Virus record (IMG/VR): IMGVR_UViG_3300020195_000150
Location: 1 to 26,391 of that record
Length of the DNA: 26,391 nt
Direction: 5' to 3' (one strand)
From: a virus
The notes beneath the pieces were generated by a model that had not been told where the DNA came from, searched no databases, and saw only the letters and a list, made by a program, of their open reading frames with translations. Shown piece after piece: positions 4,208 through 22,569 of this stretch; the stretch's first letter is position 1, and every line of letters begins with the position of its first letter. Made by a program: the position numbers and the translations under genes.

Positions 4208-4559
4208 GCTTCCTCATACCCGTAGCGGAGTTACGCACAAGCTCGTGATTCATTCCGGTCAGGGAGATGTTGATCTGTATATTACAATCAACTTCTATCC
4301 CGGGACACTAAAGATCGCCGAGCTCTTTGTGGACGTAGGCAAGCAAGGCACGACGCTTCAATCCATGCTGGACGGCTGGGCGATCCAGACCAGCGTGGCT
4401 CTACAGTACGGCGTTCCGCTTGCTGTGATTATTGAGAAGTTCAGGGACACGGTATTTCCGCCAGACGGGCGCGTAACCGGCTTGGGCATCGAAAAGTGTT
4501 CTAGCCTCTTCGACCTGATCGTCCAAGTGCTCGCCCAAGAATCAGGCACTTCCCTGTAG
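4179..4559 (+). CDS. Stand-alone TSCPD/NrdJ C-terminal-like domain protein
   Basis: This resembles only the far C-terminal domain of class II (adenosylcobalamin-dependent) ribonucleotide reductase. RARLPHTRSGVTHK corresponds to the R-LP-TR-S-THK linker. DLYITINFYPG and IAELFVDVGKQGTTLQSML follow the Y-I-T-V...GEIFI-KEGST pattern. TSVALQYGVPLAVIIEKF matches the SLALQYGVPLE-LV-KF segment, and VFPPDGRV the FEP-G turn. No catalytic barrel or radical-site cysteines are present, so it cannot be a reductase by itself. It may bind nucleotides or regulate a partner reductase. The start is uncertain: ATG 4179 gives 126 residues, ATG 4143 would overlap the RuvC-like gene by 65 bases, and TTG 4197 is also possible. 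It is the last gene of the + operon. Confidence 0.7.
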   Translation: MDSRPALRARLPHTRSGVTHKLVIHSGQGDVDLYITINFYPGTLKIAELFVDVGKQGTTLQSMLDGWAIQTSVALQYGVPLAVIIEKFRDTVFPPDGRVTGLGIEKCSSLFDLIVQVLAQESGTSL

Positions 4560-4718
4560 GTACGTCGGAAGTTCTGACCTGCGAATATTCCACGAGGGCG
4601 GGGCGTCGATGCCTATAGAGGCAAAGCCGCGTGCCGTTCTTAGAATATGCACATAGATGGGCGTTCCCTGCACATCTATGATAATGCTCTCATCGCTCTT
4701 CCGTGAGACCACCAACAT
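4542..4718 (-). CDS. csrA: CsrA/RsmA-family RNA-binding regulator
   Basis: This 58-residue frame begins MLVVSRKSDESIII, matching the family start ML-L(T/S)RK-GE(S/T)I-I. It continues IYVHILRTARGFASIGIDAP, the counterpart of the strands ending in GI-AP. It ends with WNIRRSEL in the place of V-VHREE(I/V). The RNA-contacting arginines of E. coli CsrA (Arg6 and Arg44) correspond to Arg6 and Arg47. Differences are Val4 for Leu4, Arg46 for His43 and Ser48 for Glu45. CsrA dimers bind GGA in hairpin loops and block or stabilise mRNAs. The ATG follows CCGGAGGAATAGGTT, a strong site. It is the final gene of the late - strand operon and overlaps the end of the + strand operon by 18 bases. A late role in reprogramming host or phage mRNAs is inferred. 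Confidence 0.85.
   Translation of the reverse strand: MLVVSRKSDESIIIDVQGTPIYVHILRTARGFASIGIDAPPSWNIRRSELPTYLQGSA
4652..4680 (-). promoter_or_regulatory. Hairpin inside csrA with a CsrA-type GGA loop
   Basis: On the csrA mRNA, CAUAGAUG (4680-4673) can pair perfectly with CAUCUAUG (4659-4652). The 13-base loop reads UGCAGGGAACGCC. UGCAGGGAACG resembles the in vitro selected CsrA site RUACARGGAUGU and puts GGA in a loop, as high-affinity sites do. It lies about 40 bases after the start codon. Autoregulation is plausible but inferred. Confidence 0.4.
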
Positions 4719-7091: not shown

Positions 7092-9835
7092 GCTTTCGCT
7101 CCGCGATGCACCAGCACCACATCCGTTTGTAGCATGTCCGGTTCCGTCCAGGTCAGCGAGTTCGCGCCCGCCGCGTACGTCAGCCACTCCGCCGGGTTGA
7201 CGGGGGCGACGCTCGACTTCGCCGGAAACGGCACGCCGTTTTCGGTGTACGTCGCCGTGCGGTTGGCGCAGTCGATCTCAAGCGTCGCGCCGGGCAGCAT
7301 CCACTTGTCGAGCGCGAAGCCTTCGCCCGTTGTCGCCGACGCCAGCACGCCCGTTGCGTGGTAGAGGTTGTTCGTGAACGCACTGATGCGATGGACGTAG
7401 GGTATATGCGAGAGTTGCCAAACGATGATCGTTTTGTCGAATGATGCGGATACTAGAGAGCGAGTTCCGGTCCCAGATACTACCGGAACAACGACAGGCT
7501 GATCGCCCTGTATATTGGCGTTCAGGCTGGAGTCATAGTCGCTAAGGAGATATGCACTAGCTGAAAAATCTTCATTAAATGTGTCCCACGTAGCCGTCAC
7601 CGTACCATAAATGCCCGACCCCTGACGACCACTATTTTCGCCTCCTAGTCGGCAAGGCAAATTCGTTGCCGTGCCGATTTCAACCCAATATGTTCCAGCC
7701 CTCCATAGTCCCCTTGAGGGCAGCACAAAAATATACCACGAAAATACTAGGGCGCCCGTTCCTAACGCTACGGTTGGAAGCAATGTCCTAGAAGAAAGTG
7801 TTAGGTCTGGGGCATTTCCTGAGTCAGGACGAACGTATCCAAAGACATTGACAGTTCCGCTAGTTACCTTCGCGGCATAGATAGCGACACCGCGAACAGG
7901 CTGATTTTTTTCTATGATGAACGGAAACGCAAGCCATCCGAGGGCGCCCTCATTGTCACTAGCTCCGCCAAATGAGAGTACATTGGGAGCCACTGCGGCC
8001 CGAAAGCCCGTGAGGATGTTGTACCGCGCCTTCAACTTGACGCCGTAGTTACCGGTGCCAGACAATGACGCCGGAAGAATCCTCCCCGCCGCCGCTGCCG
8101 CCTGTTGCAACTGATCAACGAGCTTCAGCGTACCGCTCGCATCGCGCACGAATAGCTCAAGGTTCAGCACTTCCGACGATGGCGTCCAGTCGTTGACGAT
8201 CGCCGACGTTAGCCCCTGCCGTACGCTCATCGGGAACGATTGTTCAACGTAGTTATACGGCGGCGAGCCGTCGCCCGGTGCATCGTCTTTGAACGTCAGG
8301 ATATTCCCGGACGCGGACAGTTGCAGCAACGGCGATATGTCGTTGCCGTCCTTGTCGAAGCCGGGCACCCACTGCGCCGTGCGTCCAGGGTTCGCGGGAT
8401 CGTAGTACACCGTCGAAGCGTCGTCTGCCTGATCGCCCCACCGCCACAGGCCGTTATTCGATTCGATGAGTTGGCACGCTGGCCGCTTCGACGCGGGCGA
8501 CGGCGGCGCGTCAGCGGTAGCCTTGCCAACGGCGACGGTGTAGAGCAGCGGGTTTCCGTACGCCAGCTTCGATACCGCGTGTGTCGCCGCCGTCGTTGAA
8601 TGCACGCCGCGCACGAGTCCCTGAATGCCGAGCGCCGTCTTTTTCGTGTAGTAGACGATCTCGTTTTCGAACGCCATGAACCCCGGCACCGGCAGATCGA
8701 GCGCACCCTCGATAAAATCCACCGACACCGACGCGGCAGTCATCGCGCCCGCGAGCGTCTTCTTGACGACGGGCGGCGCGGTGAGATTGCACACCACGTC
8801 AGACGCCGTGCTGTTCCATGCCACGAGCCAGCGGTCGATCTCTACGTCGTTCATCCAGACGCGGCAGTCGTCGCCGTTCGGTAGCACGCCACTCGCGGCA
8901 ATCGCGGCCCCGATAGGGTGCGTCTGGGCGGTCGTGCCGCCGAGCCCACGCACGCAGCCAGTAAGATTCAGGCCAGACACGCCCGCATAAGAGATCTCCT
9001 CCATCGTCCCGAACGTCGCGCCCGTTACCCACCTGATCACGGCCATTCCGCCAGCCGCATCGAACGCCGCCGCGTTCGTGACGGCGATCGTCGTGCCCGC
9101 CGCTCCGGGGTCTGCCGTCAACGTCGTGGCGCTTGTCGTGCGCCTAACGACCGCGCCAGATGCGGCGGTGTCCGTCGCCAGCCGAGCCGCGACCCCGGTA
9201 TCGTCGAATAGCCACACCGGGAGGTTATTCCATGCGTTCGGCGCTTTATTCACCAAGAAGCCGCGAAATGACCACTTGTAATCGTTGACATCGTTGGTCT
9301 TTACGAGGTCGGGTGTGTGCGTGATCACCGGACGCGCCTTGCGGCTACCAGCGTTCGTCGGCGCAATAGCGATCGAGTTAGCGGCGACGTTGAGGTGCGA
9401 GACGGTGGTGGCGGAGTCCTGCTCCCATATAGGATTCGCAACACGGATGGGAACATAGAATAGCCGAAGAACATTAGGAACGCGCTTTGGAGAGCTTAGA
9501 GCGCGCGCCTGAACGCGCCATATCGCTCCGTCTCCATCGGTAATTCTAAGATATACAAGGCCGTTCTCTGGATTAAACGTAGAATACATAGTCGCAACTG
9601 AAGACTCATCGGTACTAGAGACGACAATGTATATCTCCCAAGTTTTTCCTTTAGGTTGGGCGCGGACATCTCTGCTTCCAATTCCAGTAATCTCGGCCTC
9701 TATCTCTTGGTACTCTCCGGGATCAGTTCCTGGACCAGGACTTGCCGCCCGGAAAAATGCTCGCATGTAGACGCCAGCGGCACCGTCAACGGTCGTCCCG
9801 TTCCAAGAAAGAATTTTGTAGTCCTGTTGGGGCAT
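7088..9835 (-). CDS. Large distal tail protein (Dit-like) with inserted adhesin domains
   Basis: The 915-residue product starts one base inside the tape-measure stop (TGATG). Residues 1-200 resemble the N-terminal part of siphovirus Dit: VRAQPKGKTWEIYIVV, LVYLRITDGDGAIWRVQARAL and a VPIRVANPIWEQ stretch. The last 75 residues (LEIDCANRTATYTENGVPFP, then WLTYAAGANSLTWTE) resemble the C-terminal Dit/phage tail-family domain. A typical Dit has 200-300 residues, so about 600 residues are inserted. The insert contains two related repeats (about 253-305 and 372-425, both ending in VRG and TTA-TH), then a jelly-roll-like domain (about 630-745) with GVAIYAAKVTSGTVNVFGYV and GTYWVEIG. This is the layout of evolved Dit proteins that carry carbohydrate-binding modules. 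Receptor binding is inferred. Base composition changes inside the gene. Confidence 0.65.
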   Translation of the reverse strand: MPQQDYKILSWNGTTVDGAAGVYMRAFFRAASPGPGTDPGEYQEIEAEITGIGSRDVRAQPKGKTWEIYIVVSSTDESSVATMYSTFNPENGLVYLRITDGDGAIWRVQARALSSPKRVPNVLRLFYVPIRVANPIWEQDSATTVSHLNVAANSIAIAPTNAGSRKARPVITHTPDLVKTNDVNDYKWSFRGFLVNKAPNAWNNLPVWLFDDTGVAARLATDTAASGAVVRRTTSATTLTADPGAAGTTIAVTNAAAFDAAGGMAVIRWVTGATFGTMEEISYAGVSGLNLTGCVRGLGGTTAQTHPIGAAIAASGVLPNGDDCRVWMNDVEIDRWLVAWNSTASDVVCNLTAPPVVKKTLAGAMTAASVSVDFIEGALDLPVPGFMAFENEIVYYTKKTALGIQGLVRGVHSTTAATHAVSKLAYGNPLLYTVAVGKATADAPPSPASKRPACQLIESNNGLWRWGDQADDASTVYYDPANPGRTAQWVPGFDKDGNDISPLLQLSASGNILTFKDDAPGDGSPPYNYVEQSFPMSVRQGLTSAIVNDWTPSSEVLNLELFVRDASGTLKLVDQLQQAAAAAGRILPASLSGTGNYGVKLKARYNILTGFRAAVAPNVLSFGGASDNEGALGWLAFPFIIEKNQPVRGVAIYAAKVTSGTVNVFGYVRPDSGNAPDLTLSSRTLLPTVALGTGALVFSWYIFVLPSRGLWRAGTYWVEIGTATNLPCRLGGENSGRQGSGIYGTVTATWDTFNEDFSASAYLLSDYDSSLNANIQGDQPVVVPVVSGTGTRSLVSASFDKTIIVWQLSHIPYVHRISAFTNNLYHATGVLASATTGEGFALDKWMLPGATLEIDCANRTATYTENGVPFPAKSSVAPVNPAEWLTYAAGANSLTWTEPDMLQTDVVLVHRGAKA

Positions 9836-12800
9836 CAGTATCCCGTCCCGAGCGCCGCTAGTCCTGCTTGCGGATCTCCATGTATCTCAATCGTGTCAAT
9901 GTAGAAATTCTTAATAGTAGGTCTTCCGCCAGAAGCGTTCTCTGAGGCAGGAATAATTCTTTCTCCGCGGTGAACAAAAGCCAACGTATCGCGAGGAACA
10001 AAGTCTATTCCACTGGCATATCCTGGAGCGCCAATCCATTTCATAAAGGCGTCTCCACTGCCACTAGCGAATGCGTCCTTCATTCGCTTCATGTCGGAAG
10101 AAGAGGGTCCGCTAGACCCCCCACCTGAGGAACCAGCAACAGAAGCGTTAATTTGATCGCCTACTCTCTCAGCTTGAAATCCCATTGCTCTTAGTTGCTC
10201 AGTAACCTGATTATTAAGAGAGATATATCCTGTCTGGATCGCCGCCGTCCCATTAGCGATAAGAGAGGTTACGAATCTATTAAATATATCTCCCTGGACC
10301 CCAAGACGCTCCTTCATGCGGCTCATTCCAGAAGGACTAAGGAAGCCCTGACCAAAATCAGACTCAGTGCCCTTGGGCCTTTCGTCCAACGGCCCACGTC
10401 GCCACCACGGCACGGCTCCGTCTCCAGCGGCCCCAGCGACTCCAGCAGCTCCGCCACCGCCCGTAACGCCAGTAATAGCACTAACGGCCCCAGTAATGGC
10501 GCTAGTGGCTCCTGAGGTTGCCCGTATCCACGCCATAAAGGCGTCTTCGTTACCGGAGGCGAATGCGTCATGCATTCGCTGCATGTCTTCAGCAGAGGGA
10601 CCGCCACCGGCAACGGTATTGTCCTCTCCAGAAGCCGCTGTGACATATGCCGCAAAGGCATCGCCATGACCGGTGGCTATAGCAGCCAGCATAAGCAGGG
10701 TATTAGCGTAAATCTCTTGGGCGCTTGCAACCTCGTCAAGTTTAGCGGCCTGTGCTTGTAGAGCGGCGGCATAGGCATCTATGGCAACGACAAGCTGACT
10801 GTTAGTAAGAAGCGTCTTGTCCTCTGCGATGACTTGATTCTTCAGGATGTCTATTTTTAACTGCTGGAGACGCCTTTCTTCCTCAAGAAGGGCAATCTGA
10901 TCATCGATCGCTTTCGTCTGGCCAGACAGAGCTTCGATCTGGTCCTCCACCACATCTATTTGACGCTCGTAGAAATCTCTTGAAGGCTCATTTATTGCTG
11001 TACTAGCAGCTTTGCGTAAACGATCAAGCTCGGCCTGGAGCGCGTCAAGGGCGGGCTTATTGGCGGCGACAATTATCTCTCTCTCTAACGTAAGAGTGCT
11101 GATCTTAAGATTAAGCTCTGCTGTCTCTTTTGTGGGCTTATCGAAGAGAGCGTTATACATACTGTTTAGGGCATCAAGCGCACTAGAGAGCTCGTCCCGC
11201 ACATTTTTAGCAATTTGCGCGAACATACGCGAGAACTCTTGATCTATTGTTCTTCCAGACTTGAGGGCCGCTTCTGCCATCAAGACCCATATCGTGCGCA
11301 GTTGAAATGCCTTATCTGCCGCTTGTGTCTGCGCAACGCTCAGCGCCACCGTCGCCGCCATTATGCGTTTTTCTAGATCCAACTTATCTTCTATGACTTT
11401 AGTTTGCACCTTGAGCGAGAAAACCTGCGCGTCAGCTCCTTCTCTTACGGCCACCTCGTAGGCTACCATCGCATCAATCAAGCCCTGCTCAAGTGCGATC
11501 TTTAATTCGAGGACACGCAGGCGGACGGTATCCATTGCTATCGTCATTGCCAGAAGAGGATTGCTCTGTTGCTCCAGGATAGCGTTATAGACAGACTGCG
11601 CTTCTACAAGGCTCTTCTGTAGGTCAAGCCATGCCTTGAAGGCGTCAACGCTGTCGCTACCTGTCTGGGCGTTAAAGATCTTGAAAGCATCGGCAAGAGC
11701 TAGAAGGCCGAATTCGGTCTTATTGAGCTCATCCGTCTTACCGCCTCCATAGATAGATGGCGTGTCGCCAGCGGCAACGCCCGCTCCAAATCCCTTATTT
11801 GCATCTTCTGGCAAAAGTTGTGGAAGACTAAATGTTCCTCTAACTTTTTCTGCAAGGGCCTTGCCGAAAATAGGGATACCGGCAAGTCCCTTTTGCAGAT
11901 CCACTCCTAAATTCCCCATTGCAAGAGAGACACTAATTGAATATCCCCTGCTGAACAAATCCAAGAACGCAATAACCTTATCCATGTCGTCCCAAGGAAG
12001 TGAGGCTAGGACTTGCATAACGACAGATGGAGGCAAAGCATTCAGCGTAGCCGTAAGCCGCTGCGTCGCCGTATTCACCTCGTCATTTGATCTATTAAGC
12101 GCAGAAAGCTGAGAGCCATACAGAGTAACAAGAGATTTTGCTCCACTAAGAACATTACTCTGTTGTTCTATCGTATTCTTCAGCCCCGCCATCTGCGCGT
12201 CTACATCTTTTGTGCTTTGGCCCGTGGCCTCTAGTTCTAACTTATAGCCGTTAAGAACGACCATTTGTACTTCTAATGCTTCTGTTAGCGGATCAAACTT
12301 GTCAAATCCCTTTAGTGCGTCATCAATAGCAGATCCAAGATCTTCAAACTCAATCTCGGCATCTGAAATTGCCTGACCGAATTTATGCATGGCATCTGTA
12401 AATTGACCGTCGGCAAACCTTCCAAGACCAACAGGTTCAATCTTGAATAGATTAAGCTGGTCAGCGGCATCTATCAGCCCCGCAAGAAGATCTGCACGTT
12501 GCGGGCCTTCTGGAAGCTTTAGAATCTCATCTCTTAATTGCCTGTACGCTCCTGTCGTGTCCTTAACTCCAGAAATAAGTGCTGGGAATCCGTCGATTAG
12601 GGCATCTTGCTTGGCCTTGATAGTTGCAAGTGCATCTTGTGCTTCCGCAGAAGTATTGGACCATGAAAGACCATAGTCAATGATGACAACTCCGCCAATC
12701 TTAAGAGATGGGCTTTCGTCAAACTCTTTCTGCGCTTCCGTAACTGCGTTCATTGTTGAAACTGTTTGAGCGAGATAGCTATCTATCGTCCTAGAAAAAG

Positions 12801-15024
12801 ACTCGGCCTCATTTCCAGTAGTTTTTAATCTATTTGCTAATTCCGAGAGAGAGTCGGAAATAGTATTATTTGCAGACGCTATTCCTGCTGCCTTCTCGTC
12901 AGCGCCACTAAACCGTTCAAAGATGTTCTGTCCAGTCATCGCCTGAGAAACTGCATTTACCGCAGCGAGGCCTAATAGCAGAATTCCTAGGCGCGCTATT
13001 AGTGTTGCCGTTGCAACAGACAGTTTTGCCGTTGCTGCCGCAGCGACAGTCGTTGCCGTGGAATACCCGAACAGTCCCGCTGTTGCGACCGCTATTGCTC
13101 CAGTTGCACTGGCCATGAATCCAATCATCGTGGCGAAAGCACCTATGAAGATAGCTAGGGGACCAACGGCCACGGCAATTCCAGCAACAATAAGCAAGAA
13201 ATTACGCGCGGGGGCGGGTAGTCTTGTAAATGCCTCCACCGCCTTGTCAATAATTGGAAGAATTCCAAACATGGCTTCGGCAAGTGGCTTCGCTGCATCT
13301 CCCATCTTAATCGCATCTACTTGTAGATTAGCGACGAAGCTCTTCCACTTGAAGCCAAACGTGTCGACCATATTGGCATAGTCGGCTTCTAGGCTTCCGG
13401 CAGAAGCGGCAATCTGGTCATGCGCTTCGGCCACTTGATCAATTTGATTGAGCAGCGTAACAAGTGTCGTACTGGTTCGTCCTCCACCGAACGCTTCCGA
13501 AATCAGCCGGGCCTGTGCAGAGGGATCGCTTGTGAACGCCTCCAGGCTGTCTTTTAAGAGTTTCAGCCCAGCATGTAGTCCTTCATTGCGTACCGCACGG
13601 GAAAGGTCTAGCGTTCTAAGTCCAAGCTTATCTAGGATGGCGACGGCCTTATCTGTCGGGGCAGAAAGCAAAGAGAAGGTCATTCTCAAACGTGTGGCCG
13701 CAGAGTTAGCATTCACTCCAGAGTTCGTGAGTACGACCATTGCCGCACCCATATCTGTTAGGCTCACGCCGAAGGTTCTAGACGCGGCAAGAATGCCCGT
13801 GCTCATAGACTCGGTAAAGTCGTCCATGTTCAAGCGACCATGCGAAACAATGGCGTTCATTGTTCCCATCGCGACCGCCGCGTTTGTTGCGCCATCTACT
13901 TGCGAAACCATCGTCGCAGCCAGAGCTTTGGTTACGTCTTCTAGATCAGCCTGTCCTGCTACGGCTCCCATCGTGGCAGCGGTCATAGCGTCTACAGCCG
14001 CCGCGCCGCGAATATTAACAGACTCGATGCTGAACAGGGCCTCGGCCAATGCGACCGGAGTTTGTCCAGAAACTCTAGCGAGTTTCAACATTTCTCCTGT
14101 CATGAGCTCTACTTCAGCAGCCGTACCGCCCGTCTGGGACTGAATCTGCTCCATCGCAGTTTCATATTTTGTTGCTGCGATAATAGATACCGCGCCTACG
14201 GCAGCAATGGGAAGGCCAATTCCCATTGTGACGTTCATGCCCATTTGACGGGCGCGCGTGCCCCATTTTTCAAACCGCGCACCAGACTCCTCAAGCTTCG
14301 CGCCTAATTCACTTAGGCTACTTATTGCAGGGGCAACGTTCATCTGGGAAGCGAAGCCAGCCCCCATTTGAGAGATGAGCGCAGAAGAGGCTAGGTTGGC
14401 TCTGGCGACAGCCGCTATTCGTCCCTGGTCCAACGCATCGTCAACCAGCGCAAAGGGAGATGGGCCGGGACGTGGCCTTGCAAAAGGATCAAGTCCTTGC
14501 GACAGGGCGGCAAAGCCCCGTGCGCGCGAAGCTATCGCCAGCCGCTCTTCTGCAACAGCGGCTTGATTTGCCGCTACAGCCAAAGATTCTCGCAATGCAA
14601 TTGCGTGAGCCATTGGGGCATTCGCAGAGGCCTGAGCGATTTCCAGTTTAATGAGAGCGGCGGCTAGGCGGTCAAGACCGGCGTTCTCTATCGCAAGAGC
14701 TTGCGCGCTTGCAATAAGAGTTGCTTGAAAAGATTTAAGCGCATTGCCAGCGGCCAGAGCCGCGCCCGAAAGCTTCTCCAGCATGGCCGCACTTGTGCCA
14801 GTGCCCGCCGCGTACCTTGCAACAGCTTCGCCAGCAAGCCCATACGCGGTAGTAAGCTGAACTAGCTTTAGCTGAGTATTCTGACCAGAGATACTTAGCT
14901 TGGAGAAAGCGGCTTGGCCCACCACGCCAAGCGTCTCGAGATTACCAATGAGCCTAGCAACAGCTTCTTCGCCTATGGCGGAGACAACGATAGGAACCTG
15001 TACGCCGTCGCCGCCCATTACCAT
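9835..15024 (-). CDS. Tail tape measure protein
   Basis: This is the longest gene, encoding 1729 residues. The TP901-type tape measure core lies at about 285-510: ATKYETAMEQIQSQTGGTA, then AMVVLTNSGVNANSAATRLR and an FGGGRTSTTL segment. A strongly hydrophobic block follows at about 605-690 (LLIVAGIAVAVGPLAIFIGA), as expected for a membrane-inserting segment. Long coiled coils fill the C-terminal half. The C-terminus has the common motif YASGIDFVPRDTLAFVHRGE. Tape measures set tail length at about 0.15 nm per residue, so a tail near 260 nm is inferred. ATG 15024 is 9 bases after GAGGAA and directly follows the stop of the frameshifted chaperone. Three degenerate DAF-containing repeats lie near the end. 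Confidence 0.93.
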   Translation of the reverse strand: MVMGGDGVQVPIVVSAIGEEAVARLIGNLETLGVVGQAAFSKLSISGQNTQLKLVQLTTAYGLAGEAVARYAAGTGTSAAMLEKLSGAALAAGNALKSFQATLIASAQALAIENAGLDRLAAALIKLEIAQASANAPMAHAIALRESLAVAANQAAVAEERLAIASRARGFAALSQGLDPFARPRPGPSPFALVDDALDQGRIAAVARANLASSALISQMGAGFASQMNVAPAISSLSELGAKLEESGARFEKWGTRARQMGMNVTMGIGLPIAAVGAVSIIAATKYETAMEQIQSQTGGTAAEVELMTGEMLKLARVSGQTPVALAEALFSIESVNIRGAAAVDAMTAATMGAVAGQADLEDVTKALAATMVSQVDGATNAAVAMGTMNAIVSHGRLNMDDFTESMSTGILAASRTFGVSLTDMGAAMVVLTNSGVNANSAATRLRMTFSLLSAPTDKAVAILDKLGLRTLDLSRAVRNEGLHAGLKLLKDSLEAFTSDPSAQARLISEAFGGGRTSTTLVTLLNQIDQVAEAHDQIAASAGSLEADYANMVDTFGFKWKSFVANLQVDAIKMGDAAKPLAEAMFGILPIIDKAVEAFTRLPAPARNFLLIVAGIAVAVGPLAIFIGAFATMIGFMASATGAIAVATAGLFGYSTATTVAAAATAKLSVATATLIARLGILLLGLAAVNAVSQAMTGQNIFERFSGADEKAAGIASANNTISDSLSELANRLKTTGNEAESFSRTIDSYLAQTVSTMNAVTEAQKEFDESPSLKIGGVVIIDYGLSWSNTSAEAQDALATIKAKQDALIDGFPALISGVKDTTGAYRQLRDEILKLPEGPQRADLLAGLIDAADQLNLFKIEPVGLGRFADGQFTDAMHKFGQAISDAEIEFEDLGSAIDDALKGFDKFDPLTEALEVQMVVLNGYKLELEATGQSTKDVDAQMAGLKNTIEQQSNVLSGAKSLVTLYGSQLSALNRSNDEVNTATQRLTATLNALPPSVVMQVLASLPWDDMDKVIAFLDLFSRGYSISVSLAMGNLGVDLQKGLAGIPIFGKALAEKVRGTFSLPQLLPEDANKGFGAGVAAGDTPSIYGGGKTDELNKTEFGLLALADAFKIFNAQTGSDSVDAFKAWLDLQKSLVEAQSVYNAILEQQSNPLLAMTIAMDTVRLRVLELKIALEQGLIDAMVAYEVAVREGADAQVFSLKVQTKVIEDKLDLEKRIMAATVALSVAQTQAADKAFQLRTIWVLMAEAALKSGRTIDQEFSRMFAQIAKNVRDELSSALDALNSMYNALFDKPTKETAELNLKISTLTLEREIIVAANKPALDALQAELDRLRKAASTAINEPSRDFYERQIDVVEDQIEALSGQTKAIDDQIALLEEERRLQQLKIDILKNQVIAEDKTLLTNSQLVVAIDAYAAALQAQAAKLDEVASAQEIYANTLLMLAAIATGHGDAFAAYVTAASGEDNTVAGGGPSAEDMQRMHDAFASGNEDAFMAWIRATSGATSAITGAVSAITGVTGGGGAAGVAGAAGDGAVPWWRRGPLDERPKGTESDFGQGFLSPSGMSRMKERLGVQGDIFNRFVTSLIANGTAAIQTGYISLNNQVTEQLRAMGFQAERVGDQINASVAGSSGGGSSGPSSSDMKRMKDAFASGSGDAFMKWIGAPGYASGIDFVPRDTLAFVHRGERIIPASENASGGRPTIKNFYIDTIEIHGDPQAGLAALGTGY
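10030..10680 (-). repeat. Three degenerate DAF repeats in the tape measure
   Basis: The encoded protein carries three copies of a short motif: ATGHGDAFAAYVTAASG (about residue 1455), ASGNEDAFMAWIRATSG (about 1490) and ASGSGDAFMKWIGAPGY (about 1655). The last two are each preceded by the related run SAEDMQRMHDAF or SSDMKRMKDAF after a Gly/Ser-rich linker. Similarity is visible at both protein and DNA levels for the last two copies. Confidence 0.65.
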
Positions 15025-15258
15025 CTAGCTAGATTCCTCGCGCATGCTCTCTTGGAAATCATTAACTGCGCCGCGCACTAAGAACCAGCCCTCTATAAAA
15101 CCAGAGGGCAGGGCAAGATACTGCCAGAAGTCTGTGATCTTAAGCTCTAGCGCCTGCATAGCCAGTTGCATCCCTACTCGCTCTGGACATCTTCCGCCGT
15201 CGAGGTTGTCTGGACTCCAGGGATCACTGAGATGTTCGATGAGCTCTCGGTAGATTCT
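15025..15258 (-). CDS. -1 frame extension of the tail assembly chaperone (gpGT-like)
   Basis: This frame is open without interruption from the A8 slippery run to TAG 15027-15025, immediately before the tape-measure ATG. If ribosomes slip back one base after the second AAA codon, they add 77 residues beginning RIYRELIEHLSDPWSPDNL. The fusion product would be 105 + 77 = 182 residues. The extension contains ITDFWQYLALPSGFIEGWFL, with the aromatic and LP character common in T extensions. Lambda-like phages make such G/GT pairs to chaperone tape measure and tube assembly. An independent start (ATG 15168) is possible but has no clear ribosome binding site. Confidence 0.75.
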   Translation of the reverse strand, partial: RIYRELIEHLSDPWSPDNLDGGRCPERVGMQLAMQALELKITDFWQYLALPSGFIEGWFLVRGAVNDFQESMREESS

Positions 15259-15572
15259 TTTTTTTCGTCATCGTCCATCCGCTCGCTTGTAATCCTGCTG
15301 GCGAGCTTGTTGGCGAGCTCTGTGGCGACACTAATTTCAAGACGATCTATGTTCTCGTGCGTGCAGGGAACCGGCGTCCCTTCATGCTCGAAACTTGGGC
15401 CGCGCCATGACCTGACAAGATGGCGAAGCAGAGAAAGAGAAATTTCCATCTGATTCTCTGCCGCGCCAACCCTTGCCATGTCCTTCACGCTGAGAGCGCT
15501 GGAAATGGAAACAAAGTCTCCATCGCCCAAATCAACTTCTTCTACGTCTTCGTCCCAAACAAGCTTCTTCAT
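15174..15572 (-). CDS. Tail assembly chaperone (gpG-like)
   Basis: The 132-residue product starts at ATG 15572 behind GGAGGATCA. In-frame GTG 15629 gives 19 more residues but lacks a site. It begins MKKLVWDEDVEEVDLGDGDF and contains the amphipathic segment NQMEISLSLLRHLVRSW. Its disordered acidic tail reads DDDEKKESTESSSN. The position between tail tube and tape measure, the small size and the slippery sequence near the C-terminus are the hallmarks of the siphovirus chaperone pair. It should coat the tape measure and recruit tube subunits and is not expected in virions. The unshifted frame ends at TAG 15176-15174. Confidence 0.75.
   Translation of the reverse strand: MKKLVWDEDVEEVDLGDGDFVSISSALSVKDMARVGAAENQMEISLSLLRHLVRSWRGPSFEHEGTPVPCTHENIDRLEISVATELANKLASRITSERMDDDEKKESTESSSNISVIPGVQTTSTAEDVQSE
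15258..15265 (-). promoter_or_regulatory. Slippery site for -1 ribosomal frameshifting (A8)
   Basis: On the mRNA the zero-frame codons read GAA AAA AAA GAA, an uninterrupted run of eight A. It allows both P- and A-site tRNALys to re-pair one base back. The -1 frame is then open to the codon directly before the tape-measure start. No downstream pseudoknot was modelled. Confidence 0.7.
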
Positions 15573-15632
15573 TGATCCTCCATGATCTATCATCCATTCC
15601 AGTGCCGCTCTCTTGTCAAGCGGTAGCACTGA

Positions 15633-16061
15633 CTATACCGTTGTCCAACTGCCTCCGGCTGTCCCGAAGGGAACTAGGCCAGCGTCATACATCACAGCGC
15701 CGCTAATGGCCGCGCTAAGATTGTACTTGTTCAGCAAGAACGAACCCCTGAAAACGGGAAACCCTGCGGCGCTTCCCTTTGGAAATGCCTGAAACAAGTA
15801 TCCTGTCGTTCCGCCGATCAGACCACTGAGGACAATGTGAGAGCCGGTGGCGGCAAGGTCGTCAAAGTGACCCTTGAGCTCTACCTTGCTGTCCGCAAGC
15901 CCCGTCACGTAGTTCTTCTTACTGTCTCCGAATCCAGCGACATCGACCGTGTCCTGATCTGACGGAAGATCAACACTGTTGACGCCGACACTAATATTCC
16001 TGACAGCACTCGCACTGTCAGCTATAGCAACAACCAGATTACGACCGTGCCATTTTGCGAT
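15633..16061 (-). CDS. Short tail tube paralogue with ATC start
   Basis: The conserved N-terminus is encoded from ATC 16061 as (M)AKWHGRN, matching MAKFHGKN of the upstream tail tube gene. GGGAGG precedes both with exactly six bases of spacing. No ATG, GTG or TTG exists in this frame until GTG 15908, which would remove the first 51 residues, including the VDVAGFGDSKKNYV block shared with VDVASFGDTKKNYV of the paralogue. The 142-residue product aligns with the first roughly 145 residues of the 243-residue neighbour and lacks its C-terminal domain. It could be a tube subunit, a terminator/tube-initiator variant or a decoy. AUC initiation is inferred; a base error would be the alternative. Confidence 0.75.
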   Translation of the reverse strand: MAKWHGRNLVVAIADSASAVRNISVGVNSVDLPSDQDTVDVAGFGDSKKNYVTGLADSKVELKGHFDDLAATGSHIVLSGLIGGTTGYLFQAFPKGSAAGFPVFRGSFLLNKYNLSAAISGAVMYDAGLVPFGTAGGSWTTV

Positions 16062-16067
16062 GTCACA

Positions 16068-16073
16068 CCTCCC
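16068..16073 (-). promoter_or_regulatory. Shine-Dalgarno GGGAGG of the ATC-start tube paralogue
   Basis: GGGAGG lies six bases before ATC 16061, the same motif and spacing as before ATG 16813 of the related gene. This fixes the start despite the non-standard codon. Confidence 0.7.
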
Positions 16074-16081
16074 TCTACTAC

Positions 16082-16813
16082 CTAATTGATGTCCACACTA
16101 ACAGCCACCTGAGGCCTAAACGTCCCTCCGCCCATAAGCAGCTTCATGAATTGCGCCGTTCCAGTAAACGCCAGTCCACTGGCGCTTGGAGCCGTTCCTT
16201 GAAGGCCGAACGAAGCAATAATGGCCGTGCCGCTGCTAAACGCCGCCTGTGCTCCGCCGATAAGCCAGACAGTTCCGATATTCCCGGCCCCTACGTCTCC
16301 GTATGAACCGAAGTTCTGGATATACGCTCGTCCTCCACCCGTCGCAGAAGGCGTCGTTGCTACTGCCTCGGTTGTTCCTGCCGCGCCCAATGTTCCCCGC
16401 GAAGCAATCTGGATTGTAGGATCAAGACCCTGCGTGCCACTATTGCTTAGCTTTGTCTTGTATACTACGGCCCCGCCGATACTGGCTTCGACACTGAACG
16501 TATTCTCAAGGCTGGCAGACCCGGCAAATCCGTGCGCGCCCGGAGCCGTTCCGATTAAGAACATGGCATTTACGCTACTGCCGAGCCGGTCTGACAGAAT
16601 CTTATGCGAGCCAACATCTACTGTGTCATCAAAGAAACCGTCATGCGTGGCCTCACTGTCGTACAGGCCCACGACATAGTTCTTCTTCGTGTCTCCAAAT
16701 GACGCTACGTCAACAACGTCCGCCGATTGATCTACGCTGATGCTATTGGCGTAGCCACTCATGTCGTAACCGTCTATGTATACGCGCGCATTTTTACCGT
16801 GGAACTTCGCCAT
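16082..16813 (-). CDS. Major tail tube protein
   Basis: The 243-residue product begins MAKFHGKNARVYIDGYDMSG and has the beta-strand and loop pattern of siphovirus tube proteins: SVDQSADVVDVASFGDTKK, GFFDDTVDVGSHK, and a hydrophobic strand pair around VNAMFLIGTAPG. A second part (about 145-243) rich in Gly, Ala and Ser contains another beta domain, possibly an Ig-like or decoration domain exposed on the tube. It sits between the tail terminator candidate and the chaperone pair, the standard position. The ATG follows GGGAGGTCTCAT. The gene just downstream is a shorter paralogue covering the first part only, so the tube may have two subunit types. Confidence 0.75.
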   Translation of the reverse strand: MAKFHGKNARVYIDGYDMSGYANSISVDQSADVVDVASFGDTKKNYVVGLYDSEATHDGFFDDTVDVGSHKILSDRLGSSVNAMFLIGTAPGAHGFAGSASLENTFSVEASIGGAVVYKTKLSNSGTQGLDPTIQIASRGTLGAAGTTEAVATTPSATGGGRAYIQNFGSYGDVGAGNIGTVWLIGGAQAAFSSGTAIIASFGLQGTAPSASGLAFTGTAQFMKLLMGGGTFRPQVAVSVDIN

Positions 16814-16831: not shown

Positions 16832-17278
16832 TCACTCTTGTTCCGCCACCGTGATGTCCTCACAAATTACCACTCCTAACTGCACGTTGGCAAACTTGAC
16901 CATGCCATATTCTTCTACTACGGGCTGCAAATTAGCACTCTCAATATAAGCGTCCCTAATAGCAGCACCGCCGCCAAGACCTAAGAATGGAAACTTGTCT
17001 ATCTGGTCAAGAACTCCTTGCCATGCGGCATTGAGATTCGTAGGGCCGCTCTCTCCACTACTGCGCCACTGCGCGCCTACGGTTAACGGCACATGCCAGT
17101 AATGCAGATGTCCGCCGCCCATAGACTCCCTGACGTGCCGCAGCTTAGGATTCACATCAATTACGGCAACAGGCGTGCGCCCATACGTGTAGACCTTATC
17201 GTCTGAGATACTGATATGCACAGTTCCGCTCGGGAAAATACTGGCGCTTCCCAAACATGCCTGTAACTGGTTGATCAT
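16832..17278 (-). CDS. Tail terminator/tail completion candidate
   Basis: The 148-residue product MINQLQACLGSASIFPSGTV... contains beta strands with a short helix, ending in KFANVQLGVVICEDITVAEQ. Its place directly upstream of the tail tube gene and downstream of the neck/adaptor candidate is where siphoviruses encode the tail terminator, a ring that caps the tube and joins it to the head. The length fits the family (about 130-160). No motif is decisive. The ribosome binding site before ATG 17278 is weak (GAG at a distance), so coupling from the upstream gene is likely. Confidence 0.5.
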   Translation of the reverse strand: MINQLQACLGSASIFPSGTVHISISDDKVYTYGRTPVAVIDVNPKLRHVRESMGGGHLHYWHVPLTVGAQWRSSGESGPTNLNAAWQGVLDQIDKFPFLGLGGGAAIRDAYIESANLQPVVEEYGMVKFANVQLGVVICEDITVAEQE

Positions 17279-17301
17279 CGAGTTGAAGCTGATCTCAGCA
17301 C

Positions 17302-17862
17302 CTACGCATTCGTGTCATCTGCTTCACTTGTGATAGTTCTATTTACCGCTGGGGCGCGCGGACTTTGACCAAATCCTCGCGGAAACTTACCAGCCACCCT
17401 ATTAGTCTCGCCCTCTCTGTCTAACTTGCGAGATCTGGACGTACCCGTAAACACAAGATTAGAACTCAAGCTCGATTGGGCACTGCCAGCGATGCCAATA
17501 TGAACTAGCTGTCCGCTCTCTATGAGCATCACACCTTCGTCCCATTGGTTTTGGAACATCTTCATACGCGGATTCGGTTCCCCGAATTCTGTTACTGGAT
17601 ATGTCATCTCTACGTTCATGCACGAGCGCAGAGCGTTCATCTTCTCGAGCCAGGCAAGGCCATGCTGATTAGCAGGAACAGCCGTGCCATATCCATATCG
17701 CACCAGCAACGCCATCACGTCGGCTTGACCAAACGCCAGCCAGTCATTCACTTGCTCCAGCGTAGGCGCTGTCGCAGTGCTAAACGTACCACTAGCCGTC
17801 AGGTGACGACACCAATTTTGGACGGTGGCTAAAGCCGTGCCTACGCTACGTTCGTACGGCAA
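17302..17862 (-). CDS. Neck/head-tail adaptor candidate with TTG start
   Basis: The preferred start is TTG 17862, seven bases after GAGGAG. An upstream in-frame start at 17916 lies inside the preceding glycosyltransferase gene and lacks a site. The 186-residue product is helical in its first half (PTLEQVNDWLAFGQADVMAL, GLAWLEKMNALRSCM), resembling the helical head-tail adaptor (gp15/gp6-like) proteins. Its tail is basic and disordered. It overlaps the glycosyltransferase end by 17 bases and comes just before the terminator candidate, consistent with a neck role. The family call is tentative. Confidence 0.5.
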   Translation of the reverse strand: MPYERSVGTALATVQNWCRHLTASGTFSTATAPTLEQVNDWLAFGQADVMALLVRYGYGTAVPANQHGLAWLEKMNALRSCMNVEMTYPVTEFGEPNPRMKMFQNQWDEGVMLIESGQLVHIGIAGSAQSSLSSNLVFTGTSRSRKLDREGETNRVAGKFPRGFGQSPRAPAVNRTITSEADDTNA

Positions 17863-19267
17863 GAGAGGTCTCCTCGACGCTCTTAGCGCCATTGGCACTA
17901 GTAACATTGGCAACAAGAGTCAAATCTTCAAGCGGGGCTTCTGTCACAACAGGCGCTTCTACTTCCGATGCGCCAAACGTGGGATCTTCCCATAGTTTAC
18001 CTAGCGGTCCCCATACGCGCGGCTTAATTTCGCTCCAGAGCCGCGTAATCAGCGGTGCCCAGTTTTCGTCAACAAGTGTCTGCCAGTCATACGGCATGGC
18101 AAACTTACGCGCCGCTGTGCGCATGTCGCCGTAGGCATGCCCCAAGTTCTTCTGTTCTGCAAGCATCTTCTGCTGGATGTCCAGCAATGCTTCGGCTGCC
18201 TTATAGGGATCTGCGATTCCCCAGAAGCTGCGCTGTGGCGTCCACTCGCGATGCGTAATAGGGATCTTGTATCCCACTTCGCCAAGCTCCCGACAGGCCG
18301 TCCAGTCGGTTACGACGACAGGCGTCCCGCAGGCTTGGGCCTCCAGAATAGGCAGGCCAAATCCTTCACCGCGCGAGAGCAGAATAAACGCATCCATAGC
18401 GTTATAAACGTTATTCATCTTGTCTGTCGTCAAGCCCATGCTCTGCAACACATACGGGTTAGCGAAACGAAGCTTGTCGATCAAGCCGAAGTCCGTAGCC
18501 ATCTGTTGCAGGTCTGGCCCGCCATGTTCGCCCGTCATCAAACTATGCTGGTAAAAGTACACGTTTTCCGGCTCCGGGCTCATTTTGAGGAACTCGGCCA
18601 TCGCCGTATACATCTCGTTCCACCCCTTACGCGGTGGGAAGCCCTTATTTGCCCCCACGGTGCCCACCAAGAAGCAGTTAGGAGGGAAGCCTAGGGTTTC
18701 CTTAGCTTTGGCCCTTTGGGCGTCGCCAAGGGGCTTGTAGAGGGTCGTTTCAACGCCATGCGGAATATACGTGTACTTAACGCCGTTATCGGCGAGTTCC
18801 TTCGCGGCGCTCTTGCTGTATACCAAGTTCTCATAAGTAACCTGCGTTCGCTCAAGAACCTGTGCCGGGACAGGCTCGTGGTCGATAGGAAACCAAGGAA
18901 GCCAGCGTGCTCCGCGCCAGCCAAAATCAGGCGCAAGAGGCCATAGGTCAAACAAAGTGACAACGACATCAGCATCAAAGATCGAAACATGGTCTTGGAT
19001 AACATCGTTCCCCCACGGGTCGCTACGCGCCGGGTAACATTTGACCTTGATGTGCTCCACCGGCATTTCAAGGCCGATTTCCTGATCGCTTACGCCACCG
19101 CTGATACCGTAGTAGGCCAGAAGAGCGATTTCATCTATCTCTGGCAGCTTGGCCAGCCTTGGAAGCAGCGAATTAGACTGGATACCATATCCCGTCTTTG
19201 CCCAAGGAGCATTTGCGTGATAGAGTAGACGAATGCCGTTTTTCTCCCTAGGAATAAAGTTACTCAT
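17846..19267 (-). CDS. GT4-like glycosyltransferase (GT-B fold)
   Basis: The 473-residue product has GT-B family features. The N-terminal Rossmann domain includes RLLYHANAPWAKTGYGIQ with the glycine-rich acceptor-side loop. The linker YIPHGVETTLYKP is the classical N/H-G-V-D/E segment of GT4. The donor domain has FLVGTVGANKGFPPRKGW and SRGEGFGLPILEAQACGTPV at about 294-313, which is the E-x7-E nucleotide-sugar motif. The C-terminal 60 residues are acidic and disordered. It transfers a sugar from a nucleotide donor. It overlaps the other glycosyltransferase by four bases (ATGA) and lies inside the virion operon, so virion-protein glycosylation is a reasonable inference. Host-surface or DNA modification are alternatives. 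Confidence 0.85.
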   Translation of the reverse strand: MSNFIPREKNGIRLLYHANAPWAKTGYGIQSNSLLPRLAKLPEIDEIALLAYYGISGGVSDQEIGLEMPVEHIKVKCYPARSDPWGNDVIQDHVSIFDADVVVTLFDLWPLAPDFGWRGARWLPWFPIDHEPVPAQVLERTQVTYENLVYSKSAAKELADNGVKYTYIPHGVETTLYKPLGDAQRAKAKETLGFPPNCFLVGTVGANKGFPPRKGWNEMYTAMAEFLKMSPEPENVYFYQHSLMTGEHGGPDLQQMATDFGLIDKLRFANPYVLQSMGLTTDKMNNVYNAMDAFILLSRGEGFGLPILEAQACGTPVVVTDWTACRELGEVGYKIPITHREWTPQRSFWGIADPYKAAEALLDIQQKMLAEQKNLGHAYGDMRTAARKFAMPYDWQTLVDENWAPLITRLWSEIKPRVWGPLGKLWEDPTFGASEVEAPVVTEAPLEDLTLVANVTSANGAKSVEETSLAVRT

Positions 19268-20130
19268 GCTGCCGCCAATTCGGTGAGCTTCCAGAACTCA
19301 CTGGGCGCAAGCACGCACTTTTCCACGAGTTCATCAAAGTCGCCTGCGGTGCAAACTTCTAGCCAACTCTCGATACCGAGCTTGCCACTGGCATACACGC
19401 GCAGTCCCAGAAGCATGGCTTCCAGAATAGAATAGCTAAAGCCATCTACCTGACGCGGCATGTGGATAAACCATTCATGGCTTGCCACGGCGTCATAGAG
19501 TGTTTCCAGGTCAGGGCAGCCGTTGTAACGAGCCGCCGCATTATTGACAAAGTTAAAACTCAGTGGGCCATAGATGTCCAGCACTTGGCCTTCGTTCTCG
19601 GCCCATCTGATAGCAAGATCTACGCCCTTCAGGGGGTGAACTTCGCCGAAGTAGCAAAGCCCCTCGCGCTTCTTACCTTCTGGATGATTATCCCACTTCT
19701 CGCGATGTGGCTTCAGGGCATTGATGTCCATAGGCGGCGCAAGCGCCAAATATGTCTCTTTGGCCTCAATCTGCCAGCCGCTTAAGAACAAGTGCCGATA
19801 CAGAGGGCTTGGGAACATCGTGACATTAGCGTGCTCGCAAAGAGCTTTGGCCCATGTGCGCCCGCTTGAATGATCCTGCCAGAGGTCAAACTGATATCTG
19901 ACATGCGGCTTCTTGCTCTCAACAAGCTGCTGAAGCAGTGTGTCGGGGAAGCTCTTTACGAGGCCCGTAAAGTATGCGTCACAAGTGGAGTCGAGCTCGG
20001 TTGCACCGACGGGGATGCGTACGAGCTCAACCCCACTTGGAGCGCCTTGTTCAAAAAGCTGCATGGCGCGCTGTGCGCCGCCAGCCCGCTCCTCTATCGA
20101 GAAGTCTTTCAAAATTCCAATGCGAGTCAT
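19264..20130 (-). CDS. Second GT4-like glycosyltransferase, compact
   Basis: The 288-residue product is shorter than a typical GT4 enzyme but keeps the fold order. GILKDFSIEERAGGAQRAM forms the N-terminal glycine-containing strand-turn. GLCYFGEVHPLKGVDLAI starts the donor domain, and VDGFSYSILEAMLLGLRVYA carries the S-x-x-E portion of the E-x7-E region. The acidic position before it is Asp rather than Glu. A short acceptor domain is likely. The ATG follows GGAGGTTACTT. It is co-transcribed and overlaps the larger enzyme, so the pair may act sequentially on one acceptor. Confidence 0.75.
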   Translation of the reverse strand: MTRIGILKDFSIEERAGGAQRAMQLFEQGAPSGVELVRIPVGATELDSTCDAYFTGLVKSFPDTLLQQLVESKKPHVRYQFDLWQDHSSGRTWAKALCEHANVTMFPSPLYRHLFLSGWQIEAKETYLALAPPMDINALKPHREKWDNHPEGKKREGLCYFGEVHPLKGVDLAIRWAENEGQVLDIYGPLSFNFVNNAAARYNGCPDLETLYDAVASHEWFIHMPRQVDGFSYSILEAMLLGLRVYASGKLGIESWLEVCTAGDFDELVEKCVLAPSEFWKLTELAAA

Positions 20131-20151: not shown

Positions 20152-20553
20152 TTACTGCAAAACATCCTGAATTTTTACGGTCGCGCTAACTGTGCCAGCC
20201 GTCCCAAGGGACGTGCCGACATACTTCATACGCAAGCCTCCTGCTTGGTCAATCTTCAGTCCGTCATACCGCGCGGCAGTTACCCAATCAAAGGGCACTG
20301 AATCATTTGCTGGAATCATAAATACGCCTACTGTTCCAGCAGCCGCCGCGCTGCCATTTAAGAGACCAACATGCACGGCATTCCCCGAGTTATTGTTGAT
20401 CACTCCCTTTTGCAGCAAGAAGTATGGATTTGTCCCGCCCTGATTGGCTGCACCGCCCATTGTCGCCGTGCCAGGAAGATCACAGACAACGGGCGTACCC
20501 GCTCCCATGACCGTAGGCGCAAAGATTTGAACTTGCGGTCTGCTTGCTGGCAT
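20152..20553 (-). CDS. Hypothetical virion-type protein, 133 aa
   Basis: The product is rich in Gly, Ala, Thr and Val with no charged clusters, as in beta-rich structural proteins: QVQIFAPTVMGAGTPVVCDL, NNNSGNAVHVGLLNGSAAAA, then AARYDGLKIDQAGGLRMKYV. ATG 20553 directly follows the upstream TAA, with CGGAGTAGC as ribosome binding site. It lies between the capsid and neck genes. It could be a head decoration, head fibre or neck whisker protein. No family is recognised. Confidence 0.6.
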   Translation of the reverse strand: MPASRPQVQIFAPTVMGAGTPVVCDLPGTATMGGAANQGGTNPYFLLQKGVINNNSGNAVHVGLLNGSAAAAGTVGVFMIPANDSVPFDWVTAARYDGLKIDQAGGLRMKYVGTSLGTAGTVSATVKIQDVLQ

Positions 20554-21558: not shown

Positions 21559-22569
21559 CTACGCCGCCGCTGAAGCCATGAAAATACCCGACTGTGTTTC
21601 GGTAATCTTCACGTCCCAGTAGCCATGCGCTTCAATAACGTCCTTACGTCGCTTGTCTTCGCGATAGCGCCGGATGAACTGCATGCCGCCGCCCGTCATT
21701 GGCTGCCAGAAGAAGTTCATACCCGCCGCCGGATTGAACCTGGAAGCCGCCGGAGGCGTGTGGAGCAACAGCGCGTTAGCGCCGTACATGCGGGTCAGCG
21801 TCGGCGTGTCGTTACCCGTTGCCTCGATGCTGCTACGGAAAATACCGCGACCGACGAGAACTTCATCAATCTCAAGCATGCTGGCAAGCTGAGCTTTTGT
21901 CATCAGCGCGGGACTACCACTGGTAGCGCCGCCCTTGATGCGATCGATAAAGTCGGGGTGGTGCTTCAAACGCCGCCACGTCAGCGGCCCAAGAACGAGC
22001 TTGTTCGGACGAACACCTGTGTTCTGCTCAACGGTGTCGAGGTTGTTCTCGAATTCCGTGAACGGGTCGCTGCCGCCGTAGTCTCCGAACTGCGTGAAGT
22101 CCGTGCCGCCTGTGCGGTCGGTGCCCCAAACGCCGGTCGCAAAGGCTTTCCGCACCCATTCAAGCTCACGCCTGATGCGCAGAATTTCCGTCGCCAGCTT
22201 GGTCGCTTCCATGTCGAGCTGGAACACGGCATCTGCATTGCTCCGAAGTTCGTCCGGGATGTCCACGCCGATAGCGTAGTTAATGCAGAAGAACGTGTTG
22301 GTCATGTCAACACGGTAGCCAACCTTGCGGGCTTCGGTTCCAGGAGCACGCACAAGTGCGCCACTGCCTGCCCCAGAGAGACCGAGATCTTCGGAACCCT
22401 GGAAGAAGTCGCCACGATTGTACTTCACATAGATGTTAGACTGCTTGTCGCTTGGCACGGTCGGAAAGACCGTGTCTGCGATGTAAGAAATTGGATCGTT
22501 TGCAAAGCCGATACTGACATCTGTCAGCGCGGCATTTACATGGACATCGCCTACGTCCGGCTGATTGAT
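21559..22569 (-). CDS. Major capsid protein with apparent ATC start
   Basis: The body resembles a major capsid family whose N-terminus carries the pattern LT-(N/D)-(I/V)-S-(V/I), a (F/Y)IA--VFP-VPV segment and then KQS-Y. Here it reads ALTDVSIGFANDPISYIADT, VFPTVPSDKQSNIYVKY and RAPGTEARKVGY, with a C-terminal FWQPMTGGGMQFIRRYRED. That conserved N-terminus lies upstream of GTG 22458, the first ordinary start codon. Between the in-frame TAG and this GTG the only credible initiator is ATC 22569, nine bases after GGAGG, giving 336 residues. The protein should form the HK97-fold shell and is likely processed or assembled with the nearby protease/scaffold. Residues 5-12, DVGDVHVN, recur in that protease/scaffold. 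Confidence 0.85.
   Translation of the reverse strand: MNQPDVGDVHVNAALTDVSIGFANDPISYIADTVFPTVPSDKQSNIYVKYNRGDFFQGSEDLGLSGAGSGALVRAPGTEARKVGYRVDMTNTFFCINYAIGVDIPDELRSNADAVFQLDMEATKLATEILRIRRELEWVRKAFATGVWGTDRTGGTDFTQFGDYGGSDPFTEFENNLDTVEQNTGVRPNKLVLGPLTWRRLKHHPDFIDRIKGGATSGSPALMTKAQLASMLEIDEVLVGRGIFRSSIEATGNDTPTLTRMYGANALLLHTPPAASRFNPAAGMNFFWQPMTGGGMQFIRRYREDKRRKDVIEAHGYWDVKITETQSGIFMASAAA

Follow-up and report, generated by a model that had tools for sequence, protein, structure and literature searches.

Translation of the short tail-tube gene of this phage very probably initiates at an AUC codon. The gene lies in the tail module of the window (the whole 26,391-base stretch analyzed, which is an entire IMG/VR virus record), preceding the genes for the assembly chaperone and the tape measure protein (Table 1). 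Its initiation region consists of GGGAGG (16073-16068), the spacer TGTGAC and the ATC (16061-16059), followed by GCA-AAA-TGG-CAC-GGT-CGT-AAT, and the frame read from the ATC begins IAKWHGRN and ends at 15633. Upstream, the frame is bounded by a stop at 16098-16100 and is open from 16097, with the codons TGT GGA CAT CAA TTA GGT AGT AGA GGG AGG TGT GAC preceding the ATC. No in-frame ATG, GTG or TTG occurs between that stop and a GTG located 51 codons downstream of the ATC. The Shine-Dalgarno sequence reads GGAGGUG at the RNA level and, in its extended form, GGGAGGTG, which is identical in the closest relative. A preliminary description of this DNA had reported the ATC, the GGGAGG, the six-base spacing and the likeness to an ATG-started neighbor, and we found sequence and spacing as it stated. 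Initiation at AUC is common to the two models that we weigh most seriously below, one limited by IF3 and one set in a tolerant host, and the placement of the initiation site at the ATC or immediately adjoining it is well supported.

Table 1. Coordinates of the tail-tube genes, their initiation elements and other genes of the window discussed in the text
Feature	Position	Strand	Basis or remark
Short tail-tube protein gene, ATC start, 142 codons	15633..16061	(-)	PHROG 10528 and tube-fold model
ATC initiation codon (very probable)	16059..16061	(-)	Sole well-placed initiator in open frame; ATT at aligned codon of L002
GGGAGG Shine-Dalgarno and TGTGAC spacer, 12 bases	16062..16073	(-)	12/12 identical in L002
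GTG, earliest canonical in-frame codon, rejected as start	15906..15908	(-)	Would delete 51 conserved residues
Long tail-tube paralogue, 243 aa, ATG start, GGGAGG at 16825-16820	16082..16813	(-)	PHROG 9522 and 10528
Virion-cluster gene, probable ATC at 17293-17291, AGGTG at 17303-17299	16832..17293	(-)	L002 alignment
Major capsid protein gene, ATC at 22569-22567, GGAGG at 22583-22579	21559..22569	(-)	PHROG 1005 major head protein, E 4e-64
Tail assembly chaperone match	15174-15629		Weak, E 8e-4
Tape measure gene	9835-15024		

Relatives were found via the capsid protein, and the closest is a separate IMG/VR contig, IMGVR_UViG_3300009285_003210 (L002, also G001). Its tube and capsid proteins have 76% residue identity to those of the window, and synonymous sites are near saturation; with this divergence, the two contigs are separate phages. 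At the short tube start, L002 reads GGGAGGTGTGAC-ATT-TCG-AAG-TGG-CAC-GGA, with the ATT at the same codon position as the ATC of the window. A TAA is located eight codons upstream of the ATT with no further initiator between them, and the next canonical codon is a GTG at codon 9, downstream of the conserved KWHGKN. All 12 bases upstream of the ATY codon are identical between the two contigs; the four-fold degenerate sites of the same gene are identical at 23 of 55. Where no upstream gene overlaps the start, other genes retain between 1 and 9 of their 12 upstream bases, except for the gene at 20553, which keeps all 12, a stretch that we read as the end of the preceding gene because that frame extends up to its ATG. 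The identity of the 12 bases upstream of the short tube start suggests that the weak start needs support. The virus collection that we searched yielded no close relative other than L002. Searching by pattern for the conserved initiation site recovered this already known relative alone, and viral contigs searched with the single protein P0001 gave no relative.

The protein read from the ATC can be assigned to tail tubes by profile and by fold, in agreement with its earlier description as a tail tube paralogue. It matches the major tail protein family PHROG 10528 with an E-value of 1.1e-21 (residues 4-127 of 142, profile positions 5-129). In tblastn searches, the major tail proteins of Arthrobacter and Microcystis phages align from query residue 5, and the ATG starts read in these homologues differ from the position of the ATC by about a codon at most. 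The AlphaFold2 model (pLDDT 77.5) has tail tubes as its top PDB matches (monocin 8qhs, 9j1j; E below 1e-4, TM about 0.6). Codons 2-51, compared between window and L002, give a pS of 0.74 and a pN of 0.19 in the short tube frame, with pS and pN roughly equal in the other two frames, and the stretch evolves as coding sequence in this frame only.

The long paralogue starts with GGGAGG-TCTCAT-ATG-GCG-AAG, its protein beginning MAKFHGKN. The short and long proteins have 36-38% identity in cross-matches to L002, and a search with the long protein among phage records gave no match. In L002 the long paralogue starts with TTG (L002:14937), so the contrast of ATG and AUY between the two tube genes is not constant. 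On the other side of the short gene, near the end of the chaperone frame (about 15257-15271, minus strand), seven A residues followed by a G are kept in L002. Located where the conserved reading frame changes, this run is a likely slippery site that would give a chaperone product by frameshifting.

The short tube gene had been described as the second virion gene of the window with an ATC start. In our reading the earlier one is the major capsid gene, with its ATC at 22569, and a third is probable at 17293. The capsid gene start reads AGT AAA ATC AAT CAG CCG GAC, downstream of a stop, and the next canonical start is 37 codons into the conserved N-terminus. Relatives of the capsid gene start at or within about a codon of this position, with ATG in L002, L003, L023-L029, L032 and L033, and TTG in L004 (L004:8998). 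The ATC at 17293, preceded by AGGTG, aligns with the ATG start of an L002 gene of 72% identity; because an in-frame ATG at 17278, five codons downstream, could serve as the alternative, this start is only probable. Both of these ATC codons are seen in this contig alone. All remaining window genes mapped against L002 start with ATG, GTG or TTG. Within this phage group, virion genes repeatedly have weak starts, as in the TTG of the L004 capsid gene and of the L002 long tube gene. Inside the head-tail cluster (17846-20130, minus strand), we also observed a glycosyltransferase-like gene (PHROG 2170, 17846-19267) and an adjoining gene for 288 amino acids (19264-20130), a pair that is present in the relative too.

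Codons of the AUY type pair with the initiator anticodon at the first two bases only and belong to the class rejected by IF3, and very few bacterial genes are known to start with AUU or AUC. We give an even chance to the model in which AUC initiation is genuine and limited by IF3, keeping the short tube protein below its long paralogue. The long Shine-Dalgarno sequence GGAGGUG would position the initiator tRNA on a codon matched in two bases, rejection of the AUC by IF3 would make synthesis of the short tube protein lower and IF3-dependent, and with the ATG-started long paralogue adjoining, two tube proteins could be produced at a set ratio. The codon, the open frame, the coding conservation up to the codon and the AUY in L002 are seen directly; from these we infer IF3 dependence, initiation with fMet, lower output and a ratio-setting purpose. 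Since IF3 rejects AUY-class codons, the phage probably makes less of the short tube protein than of the long paralogue. RNA folding of the initiation regions gave nothing unusual in structure, and a masking hairpin is therefore unsupported. No tRNA genes were detected in the window or in the relative, and hence no phage-encoded initiator tRNA was found. Part of a study of start codon switches describes Shine-Dalgarno sequences as more conserved in genes with weak starts, and gives one reconstructed switch to AUU among 61,358 ancestral AUG genes, an annotation-based count that misses such starts; no switch to AUC appears alongside that count (PMC5622118). In favor of the IF3-limited model are also the ATT of L002 with its identical upstream bases, the ATC of a Nonomuraea prophage homologue, and the more distant L004, whose short tube gene has GTG beside an ATG-started long paralogue. 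Against it count the TTG of the long paralogue in L002 and the ATG of homologues in cultured phages and most prophages. The main argument against the IF3-limited mechanism comes from the capsid, which is needed in bulk and yet has an ATC start, a poor fit with a low-output purpose. If the capsid AUC is real, AUC must work well in this host.

This counter-argument is the reason that we hold the IF3-limited model at even chances and treat as a serious contender, at somewhat below that, an AUC start that is genuine but unregulated. The host would be lax, AUC behind a strong Shine-Dalgarno sequence would be nearly equivalent to AUG, and starts would drift among ATG, GTG, TTG and ATY with little effect. 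The ATC of the capsid gene and probably of the 17293 gene, as well as the varying start codons of homologues, are consistent with such tolerance. There is also a precedent for efficient AUC starts in Clostridium, where alternative starts including AUC gave, relative to AUG, 40-100% for one leader and 5-20% for a second, as compared with 0.04-3% in E. coli (PMC9680021). Set against unregulated initiation are the 12 upstream bases, identical in two phages despite near-saturated synonymous sites, and the canonical starts of all remaining mapped genes in the window. We consider it improbable that AUC acts as a shared late-gene switch, with the capsid, 17293 and short tube genes translated efficiently only under relaxed initiation fidelity in infected cells, through titration or alteration of IF3 and perhaps with the phage's own CsrA-like regulator. 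A CsrA-family regulator gene is located at 4542-4718 on the minus strand of the window (Pfam PF02599, 45.7 bits versus a cut-off of 27), and G001 also has one; it offers no more than a suggestive context for the ATC starts.

The start codons of more distant homologues bear on whether the ATC could be due to an error in sequencing or assembly, or to a lineage mutation that replaced a canonical start. AUY at the short tube start is kept in a single close relative, and more distant relatives have ATG or GTG. Among virus contigs, L004 starts its short tube gene with GTG and its long paralogue with ATG, and the short tube genes of G002 and L023 start with ATG. A search of 343 genomes from the family to which Nonomuraea thailandensis belongs found prophages of the Streptosporangiaceae type in nine. 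The short tube homologue in the N. thailandensis prophage has an ATC start after GGAGG, without alternative, and an 89% identical relative of this homologue has GTG after the same upstream bases. The remaining prophage homologues start with ATG, except for L046, which starts with GTG; a candidate ATT start in L046 was dropped on account of this in-frame GTG three codons upstream. Sampling the class more widely, over 395 genomes, yielded one further clear short-tube homologue, with an ATG start. In cultured phages and most prophages, the homologues have ATG. This prevalence of ATG or GTG would fit an error or a mutation, as would the capsid and 17293 ATC codons being confined to this contig. 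The diverged, separate contig L002 nevertheless has ATT at the aligned codon, the isolate prophage has ATC, and the rest of the short tube gene is open and evolves as coding sequence, which leaves this explanation very unlikely. The preliminary description had argued from the same rare initiator in two structural genes against random error. For the short tube gene, sequencing error is indeed very unlikely because of the L002 ATT and the Nonomuraea prophage ATC; for the capsid gene the two-gene argument is weaker, as the ATC is found in one contig only and relatives have ATG or TTG.

A downstream start, at GTG 15908 in the window and at the codon-9 GTG in L002, has almost nothing to recommend it beyond these being the earliest canonical codons of the respective frames: their positions are 43 codons apart, and the KWHG motif and the residues after it show conservation and purifying selection. 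We do not find a start at GTG 15908 credible because four predicted strands of the tube fold (3-6, 9-14, 20-22 and 27-33 in the AlphaFold2 model) would be lost. Homologues beginning at that GTG had been raised as a possibility; none starts there, and the alignable starts either coincide with the ATC or lie no more than a few codons from it. Equally improbable is a fusion of the short to the long tube protein by frameshift or readthrough, with no need of a start codon: the window frames overlap slightly (16097 versus the stop at 16082) with a shift of -1, but in L002 the tube genes are in one frame with two stops between them, and since this frame relation is not conserved, whereas the Shine-Dalgarno sequence is, we rejected the fusion.

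With AUC initiation of the short tube gene retained, ATY starts extend to virion structural genes, and for the short tube the start is common to two diverged phages and recurs in an isolate prophage. Searches of the open-licence literature with narrow phrases found no report of AUC or AUU starts in phage virion genes. Gene finders limited to ATG, GTG and TTG would shorten or miss such proteins, which is a warning for phage annotation, and the short tube gene offers a compact, testable case for initiation-codon choice in phage assembly genes.

Several known systems resemble parts of this arrangement. The infC gene, with its ATT start in E. coli and its ATC start in Streptomyces (PMC5472188), has the same class of start codon, likewise kept as AUY between relatives; in contrast to the phage virion gene studied here, for which a response to IF3 is inferred only, infC is a cellular gene that controls itself. 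In sigR, a GTC start lies behind AGGAGGTG, and IF3 holds SigR output under that of its partner (PMC5472188). The likeness consists of a rare start behind an extended Shine-Dalgarno sequence, with an adjoining partner made in a different amount, although codon and protein differ and it is for sigR that IF3 repression was measured. The Arthrobacter phages Kovu (genes 61/62) and Ottawa (genes 39/40) have two tandem genes that are both annotated as major tail protein, with the tail assembly chaperone after them. The second of each pair is a homologue of the short tube gene, but starts with ATG in those read. Finally, phage SPP1 has unequal amounts of two tube proteins, gp17.1 and gp17.1*, in its tail, kept at 3:1, with the second made by translational frameshift (PMC7666168), while the present phage has two genes.
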